Shown in pieces: positions 15,348 through 58,623 of a stretch of DNA of 58,623 nt; the stretch's first letter is position 1, and each line of letters opens with the position of its first letter. Below the pieces are notes generated by a model, which saw nothing but the letters and a program-made list of their open reading frames with translations, was not told where the DNA came from and did not search any database. The stretch spans positions 1-58,623 of the forward strand of contig SVBJ01000010.1 in NCBI GenBank assembly GCA_015058955.1. The letters are read 5' to 3'. This stretch comes from Erysipelotrichaceae bacterium. Its GTDB lineage: Bacteria > Bacillota_I > Bacilli_A > Erysipelotrichales > Erysipelotrichaceae. The translations under genes were made by a program, and so were the position numbers.

Positions 15348-16457
15348 TTACTTAACGAAGAACCATTCACCGTTGATCATGGTTCTGGTAACATACAGAT
15401 CTTCATCCATTACTACCAGGTCAGCCTTACGGCCAACTTCGATCTTGCCTCTGTCCTTTAACAGATAGGCTTCGGCTGCGTTTTCAGTAAAGATTTTACC
15501 GATGGTTTCCAGAGAGAAGCCGTTGGCGTACATCGTTCTCATGTTTTCATCAAAGGTATGACAGCCGGTGACCAGCTTGCCGTTGACATCACGGACCGCC
15601 CCGTCACGGATATAGACCTTCTTGTCTCCCATCATGTATTCACCTTCCGGCTTGCCCATTAACGGTGAAGAGTCGGAGACGCCGATGACATGGTCATCAC
15701 CCTTCAGTTTCAGAATCATGGTGATAAACTGCGGAGATACGTGAATGCAGTCACCATTGAGCTGCATGTAGAGGTCCTTCTCCAGCAGACACTGGGTAAC
15801 AGCCGTTGACTTGTGATGGTCAAGCAATGGGAACCCGTTTGGGAAATGGTCAGTCAGTCTGGCACCGTGCTTTACAGCCTGATGAACATCCTCACCGGTT
15901 CCTTCAGTAAAGCCAATTAACGGTAACACTCCGTTTTCCCTTAACCAGCTGGTCCAGCTGCAGTCCGGATCAAGTTCCGGCGCATACAGAACTGCCAGTA
16001 TGTCCGAGAGATCACCATCCGCTATCCGCAGGGTGTCTTCCCTGGTTGGTACCACACTGATCGGATAGTAAGGAATGGAACGGTGCTTGTAGTCGGTATA
16101 CAGAAAGATTCCGGCTACTCTGGCTCCCGGCTCATTCTTAGCCCGTCTGATCGTTCTGATCCTGTTTCTGGTTTCCTCGTCGTTTTTGGCGATTGGGGTA
16201 GGTACATATGACGTTACTCCATACTGCGGAATGGTACGGGCAATTTCCCTCATTGATTCCAGGGAATCACCGCAGTAGACGTTGCAGGCTCCATGGAAAT
16301 GGGTATCAATGAACCCGGCAAACAGGTAATGACCTTTCCGGTCATAACCCTCACCTTCAAGATTTGTTCCGATTTCGGTAATCAGACCGTTTTCGGTTCT
16401 GATATCACATTCATTGAACTTTCCGTCAATGAAAACTCTGGCGTTTCTTATGATCAT
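15348..16457 (-). CDS. NagA-like amidohydrolase (N-acetylglucosamine-6-P deacetylase family)
   Basis: A 369-residue amidohydrolase resembling N-acetylglucosamine-6-phosphate deacetylase. Visible are the DTHFHG pair (His53, His55), His204 in LTDHFPNG, His239 in DCIHVSP and the catalytic Asp262 in IGVSDSS. The metal-binding Glu normally found in an L-E-G-P motif is absent: the equivalent stretch reads GIFLYTDY (about 117-123), with Tyr at the Glu position. The substrate or metal site may therefore differ from true NagA. ATG 16457 follows aggaggaacagc. It lies 12 bases downstream of a Gfo/Idh/MocA gene, so the pair probably handles a modified sugar. Confidence 0.75.
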   Translation of the reverse strand: MIIRNARVFIDGKFNECDIRTENGLITEIGTNLEGEGYDRKGHYLFAGFIDTHFHGACNVYCGDSLESMREIARTIPQYGVTSYVPTPIAKNDEETRNRIRTIRRAKNEPGARVAGIFLYTDYKHRSIPYYPISVVPTREDTLRIADGDLSDILAVLYAPELDPDCSWTSWLRENGVLPLIGFTEGTGEDVHQAVKHGARLTDHFPNGFPLLDHHKSTAVTQCLLEKDLYMQLNGDCIHVSPQFITMILKLKGDDHVIGVSDSSPLMGKPEGEYMMGDKKVYIRDGAVRDVNGKLVTGCHTFDENMRTMYANGFSLETIGKIFTENAAEAYLLKDRGKIEVGRKADLVVMDEDLYVTRTMINGEWFFVK

Positions 16458-16469
16458 GCTGTTCCTCCT

Positions 16470-17432
16470 TTATTCCCAGCTTTTCTGCAGTTCTTCGGCA
16501 ATTCTCATGTATCTTATCGACATTTCCGGTGTTACCACATCTGACGAGGTCTTTCCTGACAGGATGCAGTCGCTGAAATGCTGTATCTCATAGCACATTT
16601 CATGTTCTACTGAATGTTCAATGGTCTTAACAAGCTCACCATTGGCATATACATAGGCCTTTCTGGCTTTCCAGTATTCCGGAATGACAATCCTGGCCTT
16701 TTCCAGATATATTATCAGTCCGTTATCAAACAGTACGTCAGTAGATACGCTGCTGGTGGCGATCACATTGTCCTTCATTAACAGAGCGATGCTGATCTGA
16801 TCTTCCACCATGTTAGGTCCGTAAGCCCGCTGGCCGGAATACTTCAGTATTTCCTTGCCGAATAGCTCGGCCACGGAGAGGAAATAGGCTTCATTGCCAT
16901 AGTGCACTCCCCCGCCCAGTTCCTTATTCTTGTTCCAGCCGGTGGCATATCTTCCGGTAGTATAGGACTGTTTGAATTCCATGTAGCGGATCCTGCCGTA
17001 AACTCCCGTTTCAATCAGCGCCTTAACCTCCAGAATGGCCGGCAGGAACAGCACCTTGATGGCTTCCGCAACAAAGAGGCCTCTCTTTTGGGCTTCCTCA
17101 AACAGACTTATCCGCTGGGCAGTACTGACCGTCATCGGCTTTTCCACGATGACATGCTTGCCGGCTTTAAGTGCTTCTAAAGCACACGGATAATGCAACG
17201 AATTGACTGTTGGCACGTAAACGGCATCAATGTCGGGATCCTGATAGATTTCCCGATAGCTGCCATAGGCTTTTGCCAGTCCGTTTTCCCGGGCAAATTT
17301 CTGAGCTTTTTCCAGATTACGGGAACCGACAGCGGTAAAGATACTGTTATCGGTATCACGGGCTGCCCGGATGAAACGCTGAGCGATTCCCGCGGCCGAA
17401 ACAACACCGTATCTCACTTTCTTATTTTCCAT
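16470..17432 (-). CDS. Gfo/Idh/MocA-family NAD(P)-dependent oxidoreductase
   Basis: A 320-residue oxidoreductase with an N-terminal Rossmann domain (YGVVSAAGIAQRF) and the signature VEKPMTV (Lys98), followed by the alpha/beta substrate domain with GGVHYGNEAYF. Family members oxidise or epimerise sugars, inositols and related polyols using NAD(P). Substrate is not evident. ATG 17432 follows aagaaggttt. It is the promoter-proximal gene of a pair with the NagA-like amidohydrolase, which suggests catabolism of an N-acylated or otherwise decorated sugar. The next gene diverges from it at 17516. Confidence 0.87.
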   Translation of the reverse strand: MENKKVRYGVVSAAGIAQRFIRAARDTDNSIFTAVGSRNLEKAQKFARENGLAKAYGSYREIYQDPDIDAVYVPTVNSLHYPCALEALKAGKHVIVEKPMTVSTAQRISLFEEAQKRGLFVAEAIKVLFLPAILEVKALIETGVYGRIRYMEFKQSYTTGRYATGWNKNKELGGGVHYGNEAYFLSVAELFGKEILKYSGQRAYGPNMVEDQISIALLMKDNVIATSSVSTDVLFDNGLIIYLEKARIVIPEYWKARKAYVYANGELVKTIEHSVEHEMCYEIQHFSDCILSGKTSSDVVTPEMSIRYMRIAEELQKSWE

Positions 17433-45669: not shown

Positions 45670-46590
45670 TTAATCAAGCTTGCAGAATTCGACAGCGATG
45701 CGGCTGGCGAGTCTGGCATTATTGTAAGCCAGCTGCAGATTGGAGGCAAAGGAGACTCCCTTGGTCATGTCCTTGATGGTAGCCAGTAAGAATGGGGTAA
45801 TGTTCTTACCTCTGATGCCCTTCTCATCAGCCAGCTTGATGGCTTCGTTGATGACACCTTCCATTTCATTGAAATCCAGGGCGTATTCATCAGGGATCGG
45901 ATTACCGATGACTATGCCGCCCTTTAAGCCAAGATCCCACTTGGTCTTCATGATTCTGGCGATTTCTTCTTCAGACTGGGCATTGTAGTCAAGTTTGAAG
46001 CCTGATGACTTGCAGTAGAATGCCGGGAATTCATCAGTTCTGTAACCCAATACCGGAACACCATAGGTTTCCAGATATTCCAGGGTCCTGCCGATATCCA
46101 GGATCTGCTTTGCGCCGGCGGTAACAACGGCAACCGGTGTATTGGCAAATTCCTGCAGGTCTGCTGAGATATCCATGGTATACTGACCGTTTCTGTGAAC
46201 ACCGCCGATTCCGCCGGTAGCGAAGATCTTAATCCCGGCCAGGGAAGCAATCAGCATTGTGGTGGCAACAGTCGTGGCCCCGGTCTGACCGGTAACCAGG
46301 TAAGTGGCAACATCTCTTCTGGAGACCTTGCCGACGCCATCGCCCTTGCACATGATGTCCAGTTCTTCCGGAGTCAGTCCGACTTTCAGCTTGCCGCCGA
46401 TGATGGCAGTAGTAGCCGGAATGGCACCTTCGCCTCTGACGATCTCTTCGACCTTATGAGCAAATTCCACGTTTTCCGGGAAAGGCATGCCATGAGAAAG
46501 AATGGTGCTTTCCAGAGCAACGACCGGTCTGCCTTCGGCGACAGCCTGTCTGATTTCAGGTGTTACTGATAAATACTTTTCCAGATTCAT
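45670..46590 (-). CDS. psuG: Pseudouridine-5'-phosphate glycosidase
   Basis: A 306-residue pseudouridine-5'-phosphate glycosidase, which breaks the C-C bond to give uracil and ribose 5-phosphate. LESTILSHGMPFPENV near the start, TTVATTMLIA, FATGGIGGVHR and PVAVVTAGAKQILDI match PsuG throughout, and the length is normal. The ATG overlaps the stop of the adjoining kinase gene by four bases (ATGA), the standard psuK-psuG pairing for pseudouridine salvage. Cytoplasmic. Confidence 0.95.
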   Translation of the reverse strand: MNLEKYLSVTPEIRQAVAEGRPVVALESTILSHGMPFPENVEFAHKVEEIVRGEGAIPATTAIIGGKLKVGLTPEELDIMCKGDGVGKVSRRDVATYLVTGQTGATTVATTMLIASLAGIKIFATGGIGGVHRNGQYTMDISADLQEFANTPVAVVTAGAKQILDIGRTLEYLETYGVPVLGYRTDEFPAFYCKSSGFKLDYNAQSEEEIARIMKTKWDLGLKGGIVIGNPIPDEYALDFNEMEGVINEAIKLADEKGIRGKNITPFLLATIKDMTKGVSFASNLQLAYNNARLASRIAVEFCKLD

Positions 46591-47525
46591 AATCTCTCCT
46601 CCAATATCTTATTTAACAATTCAATGTTTATTTCCTTATTGATCGTGTCCGCTGACATTATGGCTGCCAGACCGGCCCGGCAGGCATGGTTCAGAATATC
46701 CTGCTTTTCCATGCCATAGACATGACCATATATCAGCATGGCCATGAAGGCATCTCCGGCCCCTGTCACATTTACCGCTTCTTCCAGCGGTCTTAAACAG
46801 GCAGTTAACCAGGTCCCGTGGCTGTCATAATACAGACATCCCTTTTTGCCGCGGGATACATATACCTCTTTTACACCGGTGGATACAATTGCCTTTACGG
46901 CTTCCCACAGGTCTTCTTCCGTTTCGATTTTCCTGCCGCTTAACAGTTCACATTCCAGTTCATTGGGCTTGATCCGGTAAAACCTGCCCTGTTTCTCCTT
47001 AATGCAGTCGGCATAGGCAACCGACACGGGATCGACAAACACCGGAATATCTCTGCCGTAATGATCAAGCAGATGATCCATTACCGCTTCAGGAATTGAA
47101 GGGTCCGTCACGATCAGCCGGGCACCCCTGATAATTCTATCATTATCACGCAGATAATCAACTGACAGATTTTCCATTATGCGCATGTCGCTTAAGGCCA
47201 CGGACATCTCTCCGTCACTGTCAAGAACGGACATGTATGTTGAACTGCCATGATCCTTTACAATTCTGACATGTGATACATCAATGCCGGCTTCCCCACT
47301 TTCCAGCAGGATCTTCTGCCCGAAGATGTCATCGCCAACCACCGACAAAAGGACCGCCCTGCCCCCTAAACGGACATAGTTTTCCAGAATGTTTCTGGTT
47401 ACTCCTCCTACGGAAGTGTGCATCCGTCCGGGATTGGAATCCCTGAGATTGATCGGGGCTCTGCTGCGGCCGGCAACGTCCATGTTTGCGGCTCCGATGC
47501 CGACAATGTACTTATCTGTTTTCAT
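46587..47525 (-). CDS. psuK: PfkB-family pseudouridine kinase
   Basis: A 312-residue PfkB-family kinase, assigned as pseudouridine kinase because it is translationally coupled to psuG. It phosphorylates pseudouridine at the 5' position. The start GIGAANMDVAG, GGVTRNILENYVRLGG and the catalytic NVTGAGDAFMAM near residue 250 are typical. ATG 47525 has aggt eight bases upstream; an in-frame ATG at 47543 has no Shine-Dalgarno site. A transporter for pseudouridine is not found nearby. Confidence 0.88.
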   Translation of the reverse strand: MKTDKYIVGIGAANMDVAGRSRAPINLRDSNPGRMHTSVGGVTRNILENYVRLGGRAVLLSVVGDDIFGQKILLESGEAGIDVSHVRIVKDHGSSTYMSVLDSDGEMSVALSDMRIMENLSVDYLRDNDRIIRGARLIVTDPSIPEAVMDHLLDHYGRDIPVFVDPVSVAYADCIKEKQGRFYRIKPNELECELLSGRKIETEEDLWEAVKAIVSTGVKEVYVSRGKKGCLYYDSHGTWLTACLRPLEEAVNVTGAGDAFMAMLIYGHVYGMEKQDILNHACRAGLAAIMSADTINKEINIELLNKILEERL

Positions 47526-47565
47526 CTGATTACCTGTATTCATTTTACCATTTTAACTCAAAGAA

Positions 47566-48063: not shown

Positions 48064-49380
48064 TCATTCCTCTTCGGACACCATGGTCCTCTTAAAATTG
48101 TCCTGGATCTTCTTCCGGGTTTCCAGATACTGTTCCCTGTCCTGATCGGAAATCCCCATAAAGCTGACAGAGGTGTAGTCATCGATGATCTTGGCCAGCT
48201 GTTCATCCATCTTTCCGTTTTTGTATTCATAACTTAACTTATGCTCACCAAACAGATCGACATCTGTAATTCTGATGTGTCCCAGAGCAATCAGCTTGGT
48301 AAGTGCTATGGTACAGGCGGTTACGGATAATCCGGTTATTGAAGCCAGTTCATTAAGATTGTATCCCCTGCCGCTTTTATAAAGCACATACAGTACCTTG
48401 ACGTCGTTAAGATCCAGCTTGTTGGCCAGGGCTACGGTGCTGAGCAGTCTGTCAAACAGGTTGGCGCCAAGATAACGCAGCATGAAGCCGGCATCATCCA
48501 GCTCAGATTCATAGTAAACCGGTACCCCATCTTCCTGACCCAGCTTATGGGTGTCAGAGAAAAACGGGATTGCAAAGGCATCAGTGCTTACCGCTACCAG
48601 ATAGCCGTAAATGATCGGCTTTCTTTCTTCATAGTCGTCACTGTCAAGAATGTTGCGGTAAAATTCATTGTAGTACTTGATTACACTGGTCTTCATCCTG
48701 ACCGTCTTTTCAATGCTGAGATTCTGCCGGACCAGAGACCCTTCAGTCTTGACATAATAGTAGACCGGAGCCTTCAGCACGGCAACGTTTCTGACATGCA
48801 GCAGATATTCCAGATTGAAAATGACATCTTCGCAGTAACTGATGTTGGTATCCATGAAGATGTGATGCTTTTCAATGATTTCTCTTTTGTAAAGCTTGTT
48901 CCAGAGAACACCGTAATAGAAATCTGCCGGTGTCAGCATCATCTTATCGGCATACTCATTGCGGGTGATGACTGCTGCCTCATGGATCGATCCCTTTTTC
49001 GATACCTTGTTGCCTACAACACGGTAAAAGTCACCGACTACCATCTCAACATCATTTTCTTCCATTTCCCTGACCAGCAGTTTGGTCGAATCAAAAGGCA
49101 GCCAGTCATCGGCATCCAGAAACTGAACATAATCACCGCTGGCTACGGAAAGCGCCTTATTGCGGGTCGAGGAAACACCGCCGTTTTCCTTGTGAATGGC
49201 GATCACTCTTTCATCGTTTTGGGCAAACTCGCTTATTATCTTAAAGGATGAGTCCCTGCTGCCGTCATCAACCAGAATGACTTCAATGTCACGGTAATCC
49301 TGGTTGAGAATGCTGTGAACACAGCGCCTGATGACTTTTTCCCGGTTATAGACCGGTACGATTATGGAAACCTTGCTCAT
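48064..49380 (-). CDS. GT2 glycosyltransferase with C-terminal MarR-like winged helix
   Basis: A 438-residue protein. Residues 1-230 are a GT-A family 2 glycosyltransferase: VSIIVPVYNRE, DDGS (38-41), FLDADDW (Asp89, Asp91, Asp92) and EDVIFNLEYL. A linker follows, then residues 322-392 look like a MarR-type winged helix: LNDVKVLYVLYKSGRGYN, LNELASITGLSVTACTIALT as the helix-turn-helix, and LIALGHIRITDVD with a wing. A DNA-binding module on a glycosyltransferase is unusual. It lies two bases after a GtrA-like gene, suggesting a lipid-linked sugar for envelope glycosylation. Confidence 0.85.
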   Translation of the reverse strand: MSKVSIIVPVYNREKVIRRCVHSILNQDYRDIEVILVDDGSRDSSFKIISEFAQNDERVIAIHKENGGVSSTRNKALSVASGDYVQFLDADDWLPFDSTKLLVREMEENDVEMVVGDFYRVVGNKVSKKGSIHEAAVITRNEYADKMMLTPADFYYGVLWNKLYKREIIEKHHIFMDTNISYCEDVIFNLEYLLHVRNVAVLKAPVYYYVKTEGSLVRQNLSIEKTVRMKTSVIKYYNEFYRNILDSDDYEERKPIIYGYLVAVSTDAFAIPFFSDTHKLGQEDGVPVYYESELDDAGFMLRYLGANLFDRLLSTVALANKLDLNDVKVLYVLYKSGRGYNLNELASITGLSVTACTIALTKLIALGHIRITDVDLFGEHKLSYEYKNGKMDEQLAKIIDDYTSVSFMGISDQDREQYLETRKKIQDNFKRTMVSEEE

Positions 49381-51352: not shown

Positions 51353-51374
51353 AAAAGAACCTGACGGTTCTTTT
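51353..51374. terminator. Bidirectional intrinsic terminator
   Basis: A 9-bp stem (aaaagaacc / ggttctttt) with loop tgac between the convergent FliB-like and SIS-domain genes. Confidence 0.85.
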
Positions 51375-51376
51375 CA

Positions 51377-52486
51377 TTATGCTTTATAGTGTGATGAGAA
51401 ATATCTCTTCTTTACCGGTGATACCGTGGTATCAATTCCGACATCTTCACAGATCAGGGCAGCCAGTACCTGGAAAGGAATGACATACTGCATTGGTGAA
51501 AGAATGTCAGTGGTATGATATGAGAATTTCAGATCCTGAGGATCGGTTGGGAAATCAGGTTCAGCAGTTACAACATAAACATGTTCGCTGAAGGCATCCT
51601 TATAATAAGGGATGGCTTCTCTGGCTCTGTCCTTTTCCTTTTCGCCTTCTGATACTATTACAAAGAAGTAGACATCCTTGTCCGGATAAGCACGGAACGG
51701 TCCATGCATCTGTTCTTCGAATTCATAGCCTGTGCATGGATGAGCATAGGTTTCAAAGAATTTCAGTCTGGCTTCCAGAGCGGTTGCCCAGTTAAAGCCA
51801 TAGCCGGCAATGCTGCTCTTGTCCATCTTCAGGAATTCGTCTCTGTTTCTGTAATACCAGTCAACTGATTCATTTACGATTGAGTCAAAGTTAATGGCCA
51901 GGTCCTGAGCATCCTTATCAAGTTTGGCAAATTCTTCAGGGGTAATGATTCCCTTTCTCTTGGCGATTTCAATGGCCATGATGTAGAACTGATACAGCGT
52001 CTGAGTAAAGCCTCTGGTTTCAGGTCCGATCTCTTCTTCTTCACAGACCAGATGGCAGTAGCATTCCGTCAGGGACTCAAGAATGCTGTTGAGCTGTTCG
52101 GTAACGCCGATGGTAAAGTAACCTTCTTCTCTGGCTTTCTTGGCAGATTCACAGGTTGAAATGGAATCACCGTGCTGTGAGAAGCAGATTACACAGATTT
52201 CTTCATTCTTGAAGACACCGGCCGGATTTGGATCAACATGATTGGTGAAATATGTTGGCGGAACGGCTACACCTTCAATGTGCAGCAGGTTAACGAAGAT
52301 GTTCTTGATGATGATGGCGGCATGGTTGGACGTACCGGAACCTAAGAAGAAGACCTTCTTGAAGTCATGTTCAACAAAAGCGTTCACAAAATCAGTCATG
52401 TACTGATCTCTGATTTCATAGGTTTTCTTCAGAACACGCGGAGTATCCTTAACGTGACCTATCATGGATAATACTTCTTTTTTCAT
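51377..52486 (-). CDS. SIS-domain sugar-phosphate protein (GlmS/FrlB-like)
   Basis: A 369-residue protein with two SIS domains. The phosphosugar loops FFLGSGTSNHA and CFSQHGDSIST, and the GlmS-type YEFEEQMHGPF, are present, but the amidotransferase domain and the C-terminal Lys-containing AKSVTVE tail of GlmS are lacking. Such stand-alone proteins act as deglycases or deaminase/isomerases of amino-sugar or Amadori phosphates. It diverges from another SIS gene at 52618, and is one of four paralogues near the PTS genes. A gaaagaga site precedes the ATG. Confidence 0.85.
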   Translation of the reverse strand: MKKEVLSMIGHVKDTPRVLKKTYEIRDQYMTDFVNAFVEHDFKKVFFLGSGTSNHAAIIIKNIFVNLLHIEGVAVPPTYFTNHVDPNPAGVFKNEEICVICFSQHGDSISTCESAKKAREEGYFTIGVTEQLNSILESLTECYCHLVCEEEEIGPETRGFTQTLYQFYIMAIEIAKRKGIITPEEFAKLDKDAQDLAINFDSIVNESVDWYYRNRDEFLKMDKSSIAGYGFNWATALEARLKFFETYAHPCTGYEFEEQMHGPFRAYPDKDVYFFVIVSEGEKEKDRAREAIPYYKDAFSEHVYVVTAEPDFPTDPQDLKFSYHTTDILSPMQYVIPFQVLAALICEDVGIDTTVSPVKKRYFSSHYKA

Positions 52487-52617
52487 CTCTTTCTCTCTCC
52501 TTTTGTTTGCTTACAACACTAATTTATATACTTTTCTGTTCATTGTCCATATAACTGACAAAAAAACACTCTGATATGTTATAAAATAAAAATGTAAGTA
52601 ATTAAGGAGGATCGACC

Positions 52618-53685
52618 ATGGAATTATTTGAAAGCATAATGTGGAAATACATTTCCGAAGAGAAGGATGTTCTCACAGCCAACATTGAAAGAAAAGACAT
52701 TCAGCCGGTGGCTGAACAGCTGACAGGATACAGCACGGTTTATTTCGTATCTCATGGCAGCTCATATAATTCTTCAATGACTGTTGCCCCGTTCTTCATG
52801 AAGAATGCCAGGATCAATGTTCACTGCATTACCGCCGGCAACTTCATTGCCTCAGAAAACCAGGTTTCACTGTTTGATAAGGAAAACACTCTGGTTGTTC
52901 TGATCTCTCAGACCGGTAACAGCCGCGGTACCCTGGAAGGTGCAAAGCTGGCGGAAAAATACGGTATAGCCACTTTGGGATTATCAGCTGACAACAGTGC
53001 AACTCTGAAAAAGTATACTGATTACTTCCTGACCCTTAACTGCGGTGAAGAAGACAGCAATGCCAAGACCAAAGGCATGAGTTCCACCATTCTGGTATTA
53101 CTGCTGCTGTCCACTTACATTGGCTTGAAAAAAGGCATCATCACTGAATCACGGAAAGATGAGATCATTGCTGAACTCAAACGGCAGTGTGAAGAACTCG
53201 AATCAGTTCATCAGAAAACCGTTCAGTTCTGCAAAGCCAACGATTTTGGCAAGGGCATGACAAACCTTTACACTATTGGTTCCGACATGAACTATGGACT
53301 GGCACTTGAAGGCCAGATCAAGGTCATGGAAACCATGTGCATCCCAACCTGTGCCGTAGACAGTGAGGAATTCTCTCATGGCACTCACAGATCAATCAAC
53401 CGGGATACCAGCGTTCTGATCATCCGTACACCGAATAACGCCGAGATGGCTCAGAAGACCTTTGAATACTTTGATCCGATTGCCAGGATGTACATGATTG
53501 AAACTTTCCGGGATAATAAAAAGGACAATGTGGTAAGCGTCCCACTTCATCCGTATACCCAGTCAGTTCTGACCATTGTGGAATTCATCCAGATCATCTC
53601 AGCCTATGCCCCGGAAAACAATCATCTCGATCCTAACAGAGATGCCAATAACGCCTATACCGAGGTTGTAGAGACCAGAATCTAA
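52618..53685 (+). CDS. SIS-domain protein, FrlB/GfrF deglycase-like
   Basis: A 355-residue protein with two SIS domains: FVSHGSSYNSS and LISQTGNSRGT are the sugar-phosphate loops, and DSEEFSHGTHRS holds the conserved Glu-x-x-His-Gly. The ending HLDPNRDANNAYTEVVETR recalls the C-terminus of fructoselysine-6-phosphate deglycase. The probable reaction is cleavage or isomerisation of a phosphorylated Amadori or amino sugar; the substrate is not proved. It is the only plus-strand member of the cluster, with aaggagg before the ATG. Confidence 0.83.
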   Translation: MELFESIMWKYISEEKDVLTANIERKDIQPVAEQLTGYSTVYFVSHGSSYNSSMTVAPFFMKNARINVHCITAGNFIASENQVSLFDKENTLVVLISQTGNSRGTLEGAKLAEKYGIATLGLSADNSATLKKYTDYFLTLNCGEEDSNAKTKGMSSTILVLLLLSTYIGLKKGIITESRKDEIIAELKRQCEELESVHQKTVQFCKANDFGKGMTNLYTIGSDMNYGLALEGQIKVMETMCIPTCAVDSEEFSHGTHRSINRDTSVLIIRTPNNAEMAQKTFEYFDPIARMYMIETFRDNKKDNVVSVPLHPYTQSVLTIVEFIQIISAYAPENNHLDPNRDANNAYTEVVETRI

Positions 53686-53705
53686 AACAATAAATACCCA
53701 GAAGA

Positions 53706-53731
53706 AAAACAGGAGCAATTGCTCCTGTTTT
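53706..53731. terminator. Perfectly palindromic bidirectional terminator
   Basis: A 26-base perfect palindrome with arms aaaacaggagcaa and ttgctcctgtttt between convergent SIS genes. T-rich ends on both strands suit intrinsic termination in both directions. Confidence 0.88.
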
Positions 53732-53752
53732 CATTCGTTTCGTCTTCTCAGA

Positions 53753-54859
53753 TTACCACTGACCGAATTCCTTCGGATACTTACGGCTCTTGGTTGCCAG
53801 CTTGTCGCCAAACTCCTTGAGCAGAGGATGTTCGTCAGTTGTAAGTCTGCTGCTGGCGAAGTCCGCCAGTAAAGGTGCTACTGCCAGATATGCCAGAGGC
53901 ATTACTTCATCCATCAGTTCAACCTTGGTGCTGATAACTTCCGGATCATCGCTGACGCCGCACTTTACCAGAACAGACTGAGTGCAGATATCCTTGGAAG
54001 CTTCATAGATGGCTTCAATTCTGGCATTGGCCTTTGGATTGGCTGTATCATAGGCAATGACTGAATATCTCGGAGTCATTGGATATAACGGTCCGTGCAG
54101 GAATTCTTCACATTCATAGGCTGTAGCATGAATTTTAACGGTTTCAGAGATCTTCAGAGCTGCTTCAACAACAGTACCCAGGTTGGCACCGGCAGAAATG
54201 ACATATAATTCCTGCATGTTGTACAGTTCCTTGACATGGCTGTCAATGTATTTCTGAGCAGATGCCTGCAGTTCTTCATGAGCATCCATGGCTTTCAGAA
54301 TTTCATTCTTATAGGCCTTGGCACATTCTGCAGTGATCTCACCCTTGGCCAGCTGAGCTTCAATGCCGAATAACATGAAATATTCAGCCAGAGTTACGAC
54401 ACCCTTAGTTACATAACCAACGGTTTCAACACCTACACCCCAGTCAACTGTCAGATCGCAGATATCCTTGAAGTCACTGTTGACATCGGAAGTAATGCCG
54501 ATGGTTCTGTGGCCCTTGGACTTGATCAGTTCCAGTGCCTCAATGGCATTGGTGCTTCTGCCGCTCTGTGATACGACAACAATAAAGTCATCATCGTCAA
54601 AACCTTCATTGAAATAAGTGAATGTAAATGGCGGAATCAGTTTTACTTCCTTGCCTGTTACCTTCTTCAAGAATGGCAGACCGCACAGTGAGCCGTTGTG
54701 TGATGAACCGCATGCTACGATCAGTATTCTCTTATAGTCTCTCTTGAGATATTCATCTACCAGAGACTGTGTTAATTCCTTGCTTCTTTCAACATTGTAT
54801 CTGACCTGTGCCGGAGTTTCCTGCACAAAATCGATCATGCTGACCTTCTTTTCAGTCAT
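53753..54859 (-). CDS. SIS-domain sugar-phosphate protein
   Basis: A 368-residue two-SIS-domain protein: VACGSSHNGSL and VVSQSGRSTNA are the phosphosugar loops and YECEEFLHGPL the conserved Glu/His-Gly motif. There is no glutamine amidotransferase domain. The frame runs to 54925; ATG 54859 is preferred, with agga seven bases and ggagg thirteen bases upstream. A terminator lies between it and the PTS IIA gene upstream, so it may be transcribed partly on its own from a TATAAT near 54915. Probably acts on the product imported by the adjacent PTS. Confidence 0.83.
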   Translation of the reverse strand: MTEKKVSMIDFVQETPAQVRYNVERSKELTQSLVDEYLKRDYKRILIVACGSSHNGSLCGLPFLKKVTGKEVKLIPPFTFTYFNEGFDDDDFIVVVSQSGRSTNAIEALELIKSKGHRTIGITSDVNSDFKDICDLTVDWGVGVETVGYVTKGVVTLAEYFMLFGIEAQLAKGEITAECAKAYKNEILKAMDAHEELQASAQKYIDSHVKELYNMQELYVISAGANLGTVVEAALKISETVKIHATAYECEEFLHGPLYPMTPRYSVIAYDTANPKANARIEAIYEASKDICTQSVLVKCGVSDDPEVISTKVELMDEVMPLAYLAVAPLLADFASSRLTTDEHPLLKEFGDKLATKSRKYPKEFGQW

Positions 54860-54940
54860 ATAATTTCCTGCCTCCTGTTTTGTGTTTCTGTTAGAAATTG
54901 TCTGTTTTTGTCTGATTATATCCACTTTCAGGGCTCATAA

Positions 54941-54962
54941 AAAGGGATGTCTCCCTTTTTTA
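54941..54962 (-). terminator. Intrinsic terminator after the PTS IIA gene
   Basis: A 9-bp stem (aaaaaggga / tcccttttt) with loop tgtc, followed on the minus strand by T-rich sequence, directly after the IIA stop. Confidence 0.8.
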
Positions 54963-54966
54963 ATTT

Positions 54967-55395
54967 CTAAAAGTCGTCTTCGTCTTCATCAGCAGCCTTG
55001 TTTTCAACCATGCCAATGCTGAACTGCTTGGCCAGGTCTACCTTGCCGAGAATGTCTTCGAGGGTTCCCTCGTTGCTGGCTGCAAGTGCTGCTTCAATCA
55101 GTAATGGAAGATTTACTCCATAAACGATATTGATTTTCTCATTACCGCTGCTGACCTTCATGTCCAATGCCTGATTAAACGGTGTGCCGCTGAACAGGTC
55201 ACAGAAGATTACGATTGCATCATAATCCTTCAGTGTTTCAACAGCGTTTTCCAGCTTAACTCTGATGGAATTGAAAGCAGATGCGTCATCAAAGTCACAT
55301 GCGATGATACCATCCTGAATACCCGTTACCAGGGTAACTGCAGATGTCAGACCTGTGGCAAAATGCCCGTGTCCGGTTACGATTAATCCTATCAT
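54967..55395 (-). CDS. PTS IIA component, mannose class
   Basis: A 142-residue mannose-class (EIIA-Man) domain. IGLIVTGHGHFATGL includes the phospho-accepting His9, DYDAIVIFCDLFSGTPFNQALD is the second family signature, and INIVYGVNLPLLIEAALA the third. It carries phosphate from HPr to IIB. The acidic tail ADEDEDDF is short. The ATG overlaps the stop of the SIS gene upstream by four bases, so IIA and this SIS protein are coupled. Cytoplasmic. Confidence 0.92.
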   Translation of the reverse strand: MIGLIVTGHGHFATGLTSAVTLVTGIQDGIIACDFDDASAFNSIRVKLENAVETLKDYDAIVIFCDLFSGTPFNQALDMKVSSGNEKINIVYGVNLPLLIEAALAASNEGTLEDILGKVDLAKQFSIGMVENKAADEDEDDF

Positions 55396-56495
55396 TTTTC
55401 CTCCTGTAGATGGCCGCTGACTTCATTAAACGGCCAGATGTTTGTGTCAATACCGATTTCCTTTGCTCCCTTGGCAGCCACAAACTGCATTGGGACGGTA
55501 TAAGCCAGTGGAGCAATATACTTGTTGTAGTGCCCTTTGAAAATGATGTCTCTGTCCGTTACATCCCTGACCAGATCACCGCATGAGATTACATGTACTC
55601 TCTTGGTGTAGTTCAGGAAGGCTTTACGGATTTCATGCATCCTTTCAAGTTCTCGGTCATCGCTTCCAATCATGATGATCGTTACGTTACCTTTCAGGGT
55701 TGTTGTGGCACCGTGCATGAATTCCTCGAGTTCATAACCTACCGTTGGATAACGCAGCATTTCGGAAATCTTCAGCCAGCCTTCCAGCATAGAGCCGTAG
55801 TCAATGCCGTAGCCCAGCACATAGATGCGGTCACTGTTAAGGATGGTAGTCTTTACTCTGTCATACCATGCTTCACTTTCCTTAACCACATCGTCAAAGT
55901 CACCGATCAGCGTTTCCAGTTCGCCGCAGTACTTCTGATATTCTTCTTCAGAAATGGTCTTGAGAACTCTGGATAATTCCAGTGCCCAAAGATAGACACT
56001 CATCAGGGATGTTGTATAGCCCTTGGTTTCCGGCGGGGTCAGTTCAGGCCCAACCAGCAGTTCGCATACCACATCCACATGCTTTGTCAGTTCACTGTTC
56101 AAATCAGATGTCAGAGCCAAAGTAGAGAAACCCTGGCTTCTGGCATATTCCAGCATATTTACGGTTGAAATTGATGTCCCTGACTGCGATACGCCTACGC
56201 ACAGGATCTGGCTGTTTTCAACAAGATGATATCTGTTGGCACAGTCATAATACTGATAGACCGTAGGATAATGAGCCTCGGCATCAATTCCAACCATTTG
56301 CTTGAAATAATATGCAGCGATGTTGGATACGTTATAAGAAGTGCCCGAGCCAAAGAAGATGATCTTCTTGATGTCATTTTTCAGGAAATACTCGACAAAC
56401 GGTTTAACAAATACATCTTTGTTACGATATGTTCTGTCCAGCACTTCAGGCTGTGACTTCATGTAACCTAATACAGTTGGCTGTTCACTTCTCAT
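55392..56495 (-). CDS. SIS-domain protein within the PTS operon
   Basis: A 367-residue protein with two SIS domains (FFGSGTSYNVS; VGVSQSGTSIST) and the YELEEFMHGATTT motif. It lies between the IIB and IIA genes and overlaps IIA by four bases, which makes it the best candidate for acting on the sugar phosphate the PTS delivers. In the Salmonella glucoselysine/fructoselysine (gfr) operon, two SIS deglycases similarly accompany a mannose-class PTS. GlmS-type C-terminal Lys motif is lacking, so glucosamine-6-phosphate synthesis is unlikely. ggaggtataac precedes the ATG. Confidence 0.85.
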   Translation of the reverse strand: MRSEQPTVLGYMKSQPEVLDRTYRNKDVFVKPFVEYFLKNDIKKIIFFGSGTSYNVSNIAAYYFKQMVGIDAEAHYPTVYQYYDCANRYHLVENSQILCVGVSQSGTSISTVNMLEYARSQGFSTLALTSDLNSELTKHVDVVCELLVGPELTPPETKGYTTSLMSVYLWALELSRVLKTISEEEYQKYCGELETLIGDFDDVVKESEAWYDRVKTTILNSDRIYVLGYGIDYGSMLEGWLKISEMLRYPTVGYELEEFMHGATTTLKGNVTIIMIGSDDRELERMHEIRKAFLNYTKRVHVISCGDLVRDVTDRDIIFKGHYNKYIAPLAYTVPMQFVAAKGAKEIGIDTNIWPFNEVSGHLQEEK

Positions 56496-56514
56496 AACGT
56501 TATACCTCCAATGC

Positions 56515-56997
56515 TTATAACTTCAACAGTTTTTCGTTTAATTCTTCAGGAACGACTTCTGGGGTTGTCTGCCAATAGAATCTGACTCCGCGGTTGATCA
56601 TTTCCTTATAGGCAGCCAAGTCTTCCTTGCTGGCATACAGTGTTCCTGAAACCTGAACAGAATCAGCACCACTGCTTGAATTATTGCCGCAGCAAACTTC
56701 CTTGATTTCAACTCCCTTGTTCATTAATCCAAGTAACCAAACTGGAGAATTGACGATCACGATAACATTGTTGCCCTGGTCAACGCCGGCATTAAGCTTT
56801 TCAGCTGCCTTATCTACTGGCCAGATAACAAGCTTTGCAGACTGAGGCATGCCAAGACGTAAAGCCATCTTTCTTGTCTCATTTACTGCAATGTTATCAT
56901 CAACGATGATAGCTCTGTTGATTTTGAATTTTGGGAACCATGTCATATAAACCATGCCATGGATCAGACGGTCGTCAATTTTATACTGATGAATCAT
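56515..56997 (-). CDS. PTS IIB component, mannose/sorbose class
   Basis: A 160-residue mannose-class IIB protein. YKIDDRLIHGMVYMTW contains the phosphorylated His13 (normal family form DDRLIHGQV), and INRAIIVDDNIA with the later VDQGNNVIVIVNSPV match the fold. It transfers phosphate from IIA to the sugar as it leaves the IIC/IID channel. aaggtaaatagt precedes the ATG. A 40-base gap separates it from the IID gene upstream. Confidence 0.93.
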   Translation of the reverse strand: MIHQYKIDDRLIHGMVYMTWFPKFKINRAIIVDDNIAVNETRKMALRLGMPQSAKLVIWPVDKAAEKLNAGVDQGNNVIVIVNSPVWLLGLMNKGVEIKEVCCGNNSSSGADSVQVSGTLYASKEDLAAYKEMINRGVRFYWQTTPEVVPEELNEKLLKL

Positions 56998-57037
56998 ACT
57001 ATTTACCTTTCTAGAATAATCTTTGTGTTATTAACGA

Positions 57038-57862
57038 TTAGCCAACGATTCTTAAAACGCCAAGAACGAAACCGATCCGAGCCAGAACCAGAGTGATCTT
57101 ACCAGAGCTCCAGCCCTTCTTGATCAGGCTGTATCCGCACAGAACACATACTAATGGTAATAACTTAGGGAAGATTGAATCCAGTGTTTCCTGAATTACG
57201 AATGGTTCACCGTTGATTTCGAATGATAACGGGCAAGAAACACCGCACCACATAGCGATCATACAACCTGCAGATACCATACCTAAGATACCGGCACAGT
57301 ATGTGATAAGCTGTAATTTTCCGCTTGTTTCCAGTTCACCCAGGAATTCCTGTCCTCTTGCATAACCGATCTTTAATGAATACCATCTGGTTAAGAAGTT
57401 AGGAATGTTGAAGACTGCGAGCAGTACTAATGGAGCAATTGGATTACCCCGCTGAGCAAAGCCTAATGCTAAGCCAGAAGCTAATAATTTGAAGATGCCC
57501 CAGAAGAATGCGTCACCAACACCGCTTAATGGGCCCATCAGAGCGACCTTTACGGCGTTGATTGCTTCAAAGTCATAGTTTTCTTCTTCCTTAGCCTGTT
57601 CTTCCATAGCAATTGCGATGCCCATGATTAATGGTGCAGGTGCAACTGTCATGTTGAACGGAGCCAGGTGTCTCTGTAATGATTTCTGATAATCTGCATC
57701 ATCAGGCCAGATCTTTCTTAATACATGCTGAATGGCAATACAGAAACCTACGCCCTGCATCTTCATATAAGTGAAGTTTGCCTGCATTAAGAATGATCTC
57801 CAGAAGATCTTGGTAAAGTCCTTCTTGGTGATGTTGTTCTTCTTGCTTACATATTCAGTCAT
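57038..57862 (-). CDS. PTS IID component, mannose class
   Basis: A 274-residue membrane IID subunit. KKDFTKIFWRSFLMQANFTYMKMQGVGFC and the MGPLSGVGDAFFWG segment are signatures of the family, followed by several hydrophobic helices and the C-terminal segment. With IIC it forms the sugar channel. The frame opens at 57877, but ATG 57862 has ggaggac seven bases upstream and is the likely start, just after the IIC stop. Confidence 0.94.
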   Translation of the reverse strand: MTEYVSKKNNITKKDFTKIFWRSFLMQANFTYMKMQGVGFCIAIQHVLRKIWPDDADYQKSLQRHLAPFNMTVAPAPLIMGIAIAMEEQAKEEENYDFEAINAVKVALMGPLSGVGDAFFWGIFKLLASGLALGFAQRGNPIAPLVLLAVFNIPNFLTRWYSLKIGYARGQEFLGELETSGKLQLITYCAGILGMVSAGCMIAMWCGVSCPLSFEINGEPFVIQETLDSIFPKLLPLVCVLCGYSLIKKGWSSGKITLVLARIGFVLGVLRIVG

Positions 57863-57864
57863 GA

Positions 57865-58623
57865 TTAGTCCTCCCATTCGTCGGCGGCTGCAGCGGCTAC
57901 TGCCTTCTTACCACCGAACTTATTAGCAATAATGTAGTAGATCCATGCCAGAGCCAGACCAATTGCACCAATACCGATCATGTTGTATCCAGTACCAGCG
58001 AATGCTGCTAATGTATAACCAATCATGAAGAATGGGATCAGCTCTGTATCCATCATGATAGATAACAGCATAGCGAAACCGTAAGAGTTCAGTAACTGTC
58101 CGGCACCACCTAAGCCGTTTTCCAGCCATGCTGGGAATGCAACGCTCATAGCTTCTGAGAATGCACCAGCTGCAAGTAACCAAGCTAAGACAACTGCGAA
58201 TTCGACTAATACTCTTAATACTGCAGCAAGCATAAATGTTGGGAATACCTTGTTGTAAACGCCATTAGCTACATCATTGTCAATCTTTACATCAAAGTAA
58301 CCGAAAGCCGTGTTCCAGAGACTTTCTGCAAACTGCATGATCATTGATGCAGGTAATGCGAACAGCATAGCTGCTTCGAAACCCTTGCCGGATACTAAAG
58401 CAACAACTGTACCAAGGAAACCACCTGTGGTGACGTCGAGGTGAGCAACTGGGCCGATACCTGCGGTACCCATCCAGATCATTTCGAACTGAGCACCAAT
58501 CTTCAGAGCTTCAGGAATGTTTCCTAAGATTAAGCCGACAAAGAAACTTGTGCAGATTGGCTGACGGAACTTACATTCACCAAACCAACCGCCTTCCATA
58601 CGACAGAAAGCACAAGCAGCTGC
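57865..58623 (-). CDS. PTS IIC component, mannose class (partial, runs off the window)
   Basis: The visible 252 codons encode the IIC channel subunit of a mannose-class PTS: RQPICTSFFVGLILGNIPEALKIGAQFEMIWMG is the N-terminal family signature, followed by several transmembrane helices and an alanine-rich tail ending DEWED. The frame remains open to the last base of the window. An internal ATG at 58599 lies too close to the RQPICTSFF motif to be the true start, since the normal N-terminus has about 20-25 more residues, so the gene begins beyond 58623. It is followed two bases later by IID. Confidence 0.92.
   Translation of the reverse strand, partial: AAACAFCRMEGGWFGECKFRQPICTSFFVGLILGNIPEALKIGAQFEMIWMGTAGIGPVAHLDVTTGGFLGTVVALVSGKGFEAAMLFALPASMIMQFAESLWNTAFGYFDVKIDNDVANGVYNKVFPTFMLAAVLRVLVEFAVVLAWLLAAGAFSEAMSVAFPAWLENGLGGAGQLLNSYGFAMLLSIMMDTELIPFFMIGYTLAAFAGTGYNMIGIGAIGLALAWIYYIIANKFGGKKAVAAAAADEWED

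Follow-up and report, generated by a model that had tools for sequence, protein, structure and literature searches.

A mannose-family phosphotransferase operon with four SIS-domain proteins in a ruminant-gut Erysipelotrichaceae bacterium: a candidate locus for the deglycation of sugar-amine conjugates

Early glycation products are plentiful in heated food and feed and, to our knowledge, have few known users among gut bacteria. In Salmonella, the gfrABCDEF operon combines the IIA-IID components of a mannose-family phosphotransferase system (PTS) for fructoselysine and glucoselysine with SIS proteins (PMC12675984), of which GfrE is the glucoselysine-6-phosphate deglycase (here and below, statements on GfrE and GfrF rest on PMC12675984 and PMC12136445). 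In E. coli, frlABCDR encodes a fructoselysine permease, a deglycase, a kinase and a regulator, and the aga/gam cluster places a mannose-family PTS beside AgaS, an SIS protein with the isomerase part only. Here we describe a related arrangement in the window, that is, the whole 58,623-bp contig C34 (SVBJ01000010.1) of the 1.78-Mb, 95 % complete genome of a ruminant-gut bacterium of the Erysipelotrichaceae, in which a mannose-family PTS is accompanied by four SIS-domain proteins, SIS-A to SIS-D.

We infer, with moderate confidence, both a reaction and a substrate class for this locus, namely the uptake and deglycation of Amadori- or Heyns-type sugar-amine conjugates. According to this scenario, the PTS (IIC, IID, IIB and IIA) would import the conjugate and phosphorylate its sugar on carbon 6, and SIS-A would then cleave the C-N bond of the 6-phosphate, so that a hexose 6-phosphate is released along with the free amine or amino acid; the chemistry would involve ring opening and enolisation, as in GlmS, NagB-II and the deglycases. 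SIS-B, SIS-C and SIS-D would be related enzymes acting on other conjugates, whether taken up by this route or another, and the divergence of the paralogues suggests that the four proteins may serve several related substrates. The locus comprises the following features:

57865..58623, minus strand: PTS component IIC; Pfam EII-Sor, 7.6e-44; 5' end truncated by the contig end
57038..57877, minus strand: PTS component IID; Pfam EIID-AGA, 8.9e-84; own clade in the IID tree
56515..56997, minus strand: PTS component IIB; Pfam PTSIIB_sorb, 1.6e-35; DDRLIHG with the presumed phospho-His
55392..56495, minus strand: SIS-A, 367 aa, the core enzyme of the operon; Pfam SIS, 4.1e-20
54967..55395, minus strand: PTS component IIA; Pfam EIIA-man, 7.5e-21; GHG motif with the presumed phospho-His
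54939..54960: terminator-like stem-loop in the gap between IIA and SIS-B
53753..54859, minus strand: SIS-B, 368 aa (ATG start); family often beside FrlB/GfrF genes
53706..53731: terminator-like stem-loop of 11 pairs between the convergent SIS-C and SIS-B
52618..53685, plus strand: SIS-C, 355 aa; found 3' of IIA in Holdemanella and further SIS-A operons
52487..52617: divergent promoter region of SIS-C and SIS-D; GntR operators in congeners, none in this genome
51377..52486, minus strand: SIS-D, 369 aa, sister of SIS-A; close relatives adjoin their own PTS (L098, L069)
51353..51374: terminator-like stem-loop on the 3' side of SIS-D

The minus strand thus reads IIC-IID-IIB-SIS-A-IIA, a terminator and SIS-B, with SIS-C (plus) and SIS-D (minus) divergent; the coordinates, strands and gene order given in the first-pass annotation, as well as its terminator between IIA and SIS-B, are borne out by the open reading frames, the Pfam matches and the stem-loop. 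IIC and IID overlap by 13 nt and SIS-A and IIA by 4 nt, and for SIS-B the ATG at 54859 is preferred over the GTG at 54925 as the start. The PTS of the mannose/fructose/sorbose family is complete, with IIA, IIB, IIC and IID matching Pfam PF03610, PF03830, PF03609 and PF03613, respectively, and the phospho-histidine motifs of the mannose family, GHG in IIA and DDRLIHG in IIB, can be read from the sequence.

In Pfam, SIS-A to SIS-D show SIS-type domains only and no amidotransferase or glutaminase domain, and they display the motifs EEFMHG, EEFLHG, EEFSHG and EEQMHG together with S-Q-x-G loops, in agreement with the initial description of four SIS proteins with sugar-phosphate loops and an E-E-x-x-H-G motif. 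All four retain the residues E481, K485, E488 and H504 (GlmS numbering) and the S347 phosphate loop, the identical set being present in GfrE, and lack the K603 tail of GlmS; across 18 SIS-A orthologs, E238, K242, E245 and H261 are invariant. The AlphaFold2 model of SIS-A (predicted local distance difference score, pLDDT, 89.6) finds its best match in the PDB in Listeria Lmo0035 (2aml; Z 47.1, root-mean-square deviation 1.7), itself a member of the GfrE clade, and matches C. difficile CD3275 (3g68) with a Z of 43.1. The four proteins were rejected as GlmS or AgaS, their scores being far under the family cut-offs: 84-130 bits with the GlmS model TIGR01135 (cut-off 418) and, for the AgaS family (cut-off 529), 21.6 for SIS-A and 32.9 for SIS-C, with no listed match for SIS-B and SIS-D. 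They score 36-73 bits for NagB-II (cut-off 430) and stay far under the cut-off for FrlB. The same genome encodes four further double-SIS proteins (L015:7308-8387 and 15860-16936; L016:8044-9165; L017:7736-8734), which brings the total to eight in 1.78 Mb.

In a tree of 59 SIS proteins, SIS-A to SIS-D fall into a 37-row clade (support 99/94) that also contains GfrE-type proteins from Klebsiella, E. faecium and Cetobacterium as well as 2aml, 3g68 and 3knz; separate clades are formed by GlmS (99/97) and by FrlB/GfrF/FraB (100/99). The GfrE and GfrF proteins of Klebsiella and E. faecium were named by gene order, those of Klebsiella also because the neighbour is 82-83 % identical to Salmonella GfrF. 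A sister relationship joins SIS-A and SIS-D (100/99), SIS-B lies within a 10-row family (100/100), and SIS-C is the first branch within the clade that unites the four proteins with GfrE. Judging from this tree, all four appear to belong to a GfrE-like clade apart from GlmS and FrlB/GfrF, less firmly so in the case of SIS-C. The clustering of all four with GlmS or AgaS, which the first-pass annotation had named as an outcome that would speak against it, is not seen in the best trees (for SIS-C with GlmS, p is 0.095 in the approximately unbiased, AU, test).

A scan of genome contigs yielded 38 loci, of which 35 include SIS-A (51-94 % identity), mostly in Erysipelotrichales; the hosts include Holdemanella, Holdemania, Breznakia, Floccifex, Clostridium porci, [Clostridium] asparagiforme, Collinsella, Atopobium and metagenome-assembled genomes from the ruminant gut. 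The usual order is UTRA protein, GntR, IIC, IID, IIB, SIS-A, (HAD), IIA, (SIS-C): IIB stands directly 5' of SIS-A in 31 of the 35 loci, and IIA follows within two genes 3' of SIS-A in 28. GntR/UTRA genes are carried by 31 of these loci, HAD by 16, SIS-C by 10, SIS-B by 6 and FrlB-like genes by 4. The HAD proteins are of the sugar-phosphatase/beta-phosphoglucomutase kind, and some operons include an EamA carrier of the amino acid/amine type, which would fit the export of the released amine.

A link to deglycation is also apparent from gene neighbourhoods. In the genomes G005 and G006 and in locus L098, the SIS-A operon continues into FrlB/GfrF-like and FrlD-like genes (fructoselysine deglycase and kinase). 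Relatives of SIS-B adjoin FrlB/GfrF genes on an E. faecium plasmid and in H. biformis, Collinsella, G032, G039 and G227, and stand elsewhere in L149, L150, G037 and L. paracasei. Separately, the FrlB-like and SIS-B proteins of Holdemanella biformis are 97 % and 90 % identical to the copies on a conjugative Enterococcus faecium plasmid (L107:2519-4665, L077:8945-11077), and this near-identity points to recent transfer of a deglycase operon.

In the IID tree, the sequences from SIS-A operons make up a clade of 12 rows by themselves (100/100), distinct from those of Gfr (98/94) and AgaD (98/97); a GalNAc/GalN PTS was accordingly rejected, the IID of the window being placed elsewhere. The nearest neighbour of this clade is the IID that accompanies SIS-D relatives (81/89), in step with the sisterhood of SIS-A and SIS-D. 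No GfrF/FrlB-type deglycase gene is found in the window, such genes being present in the operons of G005, G006 and L098 and on contig C19 of the same genome. Because the PTS failed the test of orthology and the operon of the window has no FrlB/GfrF gene, the locus works like Gfr and is not a Gfr member or ortholog. Hence, the comparison with gfr made at the outset holds for the manner of working, given the GfrE clade and the position of the SIS-B family beside FrlB/GfrF genes, and fails for descent: the PTS is not a Gfr ortholog and none of the four SIS proteins is of the FrlB/GfrF type.

Regulation could be approached through the sister species. Exact TGTMTAKACA sites number 8 in 69 kb of four GntR-carrying loci, versus 0.25 expected under a first-order model, and each of the 8 falls in a promoter region, either that of the PTS operon or that of SIS-C/SIS-D; none occurs in the loci of the window's genome (G000) or of G003, both of which are without a GntR gene. 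We infer that the GntR/UTRA regulator of the sister species controls both the PTS operon and SIS-C/SIS-D, and that the species of the window lost the regulator and its operators together. The GntR protein has no match at E 1e-25 or better anywhere in the window's genome, and, the regulator being lost, no candidate operator is seen near the locus even when one mismatch is allowed; the joint loss of regulator and sites supports the assignment of the operator to GntR. TGTMTAKACA was rejected as the operator of Holdemanella, with a single exact match in L107. In the L100-L129 loci with a UTRA-GntR pair, another palindrome, GGTATA-N-TATACC, precedes IIC and is likely to be the operator of the wider family. 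The two groups are kept apart because of this different palindrome and the single match in L107.

Upstream of IIC, the sister species share a leader hairpin with a GCCGT loop and a covarying stem of 8 pairs, 5 of which show changes on both sides (40 of 40 cells paired). A covariance model built from these species and run against whole genomes of the genus retrieved one further copy, located where contig C15 of the window's genome ends; C15 overlaps the window by exactly 77 bp, and the joined IIC measures 260 aa. Among the genomes searched, the hairpin is found at the PTS operon only (L147:135-178, minus strand; L095 1058-1102; L096 6781-6825; L097 4296-4336; L098 6808-6851; L099 6807-6847). 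A known RNA family was rejected, Rfam giving a single sub-threshold match. On C15, the region 5' of IIC contains the hairpin and genes for a 222-aa protein outside any Pfam family, for an MFS transporter and for a GAPDH-like protein. No regulator is present there upstream of IIC, nor is there a gene that would link the PTS to GalNAc, such a link being the other outcome that the first-pass annotation had named as adverse to its proposal.

Several observations weigh against assigning a deglycation function to the locus. The grouping of SIS-C with GlmS is not rejected by the AU test, the best tree does not place SIS-A and SIS-D directly with GfrE, and the clade that contains GfrE includes proteins without a named substrate (3g68, 3knz). 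We know of no assayed protein from the SIS-A, SIS-C or SIS-D families. The IID lies outside the Gfr clade, so that the substrate may differ from fructoselysine and glucoselysine. Finally, in the window's own genome the FrlB/FrlD pair is not in the operon but on another contig, C19. The pair itself speaks for deglycation: its FrlB-like member finds matches in Salmonella FrlB/GfrF structures (8glr and 2a3n, 1e-62), and the FrlD-like protein matches the fructoselysine 6-kinase model at 6.8e-38, under the curated cut-off. The pair follows a 6-phospho-beta-glucosidase that exceeds its NCBIfam cut-off. In L017:6180-9599, genes for a 6-phospho-beta-glucosidase, an FrlB-like deglycase and an FrlD-like kinase are consecutive, a row that could free a fructosamine from an imported disaccharide conjugate, with phosphorylation and deglycation to follow.

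An alternative function for such a locus is the import of free amino sugars (galactosamine, mannosamine, glucosamine or rarer ones), the SIS proteins being aminosugar-6-phosphate deaminase/isomerases like AgaS and NagB-II. Enzymes of these types share the fold and the catalytic residues, Aga-type mannose-family PTS do import amino sugars, and the SIS-B relative of L. paracasei lies near genes annotated agaBCD. We nevertheless consider this unlikely: none of the four proteins groups with AgaS or NagB-II, the IID stands apart from AgaD, no deacetylase is recognised within the SIS-A operons, and this genome already has two NagB genes.

It is also conceivable, if slightly less probable still, that SIS-A alone works with the PTS, and that SIS-B, SIS-C and SIS-D are neighbours with separate roles, each once part of another PTS module. 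The relatives of SIS-D with their own IIB-IIC-IID would fit this, as would the position of SIS-B behind a terminator and of its relatives in other PTS operons; yet the four-SIS cluster is conserved in G003, G005, G008 and L098 (G006 has all four on two contig ends), one operator type serves both the PTS and the SIS-C/SIS-D promoters, and SIS-C follows IIA in several SIS-A operons. That one SIS protein replaces the missing GlmS and supplies glucosamine 6-phosphate for the cell wall is very improbable, even though GlmS is absent in 9 of 9 genomes of the genus and the AU test leaves a grouping of SIS-C with GlmS standing, since the SIS proteins have neither the amidotransferase domain nor the K603 tail, NagB is present in all nine genomes and a NagA-like gene in this one, G001, G002, G004 and G007 manage without both GlmS and a SIS-A ortholog, and a PTS operon is an unlikely site for a housekeeping step.

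The absence of GlmS extends beyond the genus: of the 57 family genomes sampled, 31 have no GlmS above the cut-off, and 27 of those 31 have NagB. Such bacteria may depend on the salvage of N-acetylglucosamine (GlcNAc) or on NagB run backwards; Akkermansia is a known GlmS-less case, which requires GlcNAc or GalNAc (PMC5902328).

Should the SIS proteins prove to be deglycases, this would mean a second PTS-based route for glycation products in a common group of gut Firmicutes and Coriobacteriia, for which the cultured species Holdemanella biformis, Holdemania filiformis, Breznakia pachnodae and Floccifex porci offer test cases. As a more speculative extension, to which we give distinctly less credence, SIS-A and its PTS might represent an undescribed PTS-deglycase class in Erysipelotrichales, Lachnospiraceae and Coriobacteriia, for glycated amines beyond fructoselysine and glucoselysine, with the ruminant genus keeping as many as eight deglycase-like enzymes to handle various Maillard products.

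Elsewhere in the window, 48064-49380 (minus) encodes a family 2 glycosyltransferase with a possible C-terminal winged helix-turn-helix (HTH_24, 21.5 bits; cut-off 21.9), and 45670-47543 (minus) a pair that, by eye only, resembles a pseudouridine-5'-phosphate glycosidase and a PfkB-type kinase.

Compared with the known systems, the locus shares with Salmonella gfr the union of mannose-family IIA-IID and SIS proteins in one operon, the GfrE clade and the GfrE catalytic residues; it differs in the order IIC-IID-IIB-SIS-IIA, the clade of its IID, its four SIS genes, the lack of an adjoining FrlB/GfrF gene in this genome, and the GntR of the sister species, where gfr has a sigma-54 regulator. With E. 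coli frlABCDR it has in common the FrlB-like and FrlD-like genes, in sister-species operons and here on C19, whereas uptake is by a PTS and FrlB belongs to another SIS clade. The E. coli aga/gam cluster likewise sets a mannose-family PTS beside an isomerase-only SIS protein, but AgaS is a very distant SIS protein and AgaD falls into another IID clade. GlmS (its isomerase domain) and NagB-II share the fold and the catalytic Glu/Lys/Glu/His; in contrast, the four SIS proteins have no glutaminase domain and no K603 tail and form a separate clade. The solved structures nearest to SIS-A remain Lmo0035 (2aml) and CD3275 (3g68), at 23-27 % identity, whose PDB entries name no substrate.

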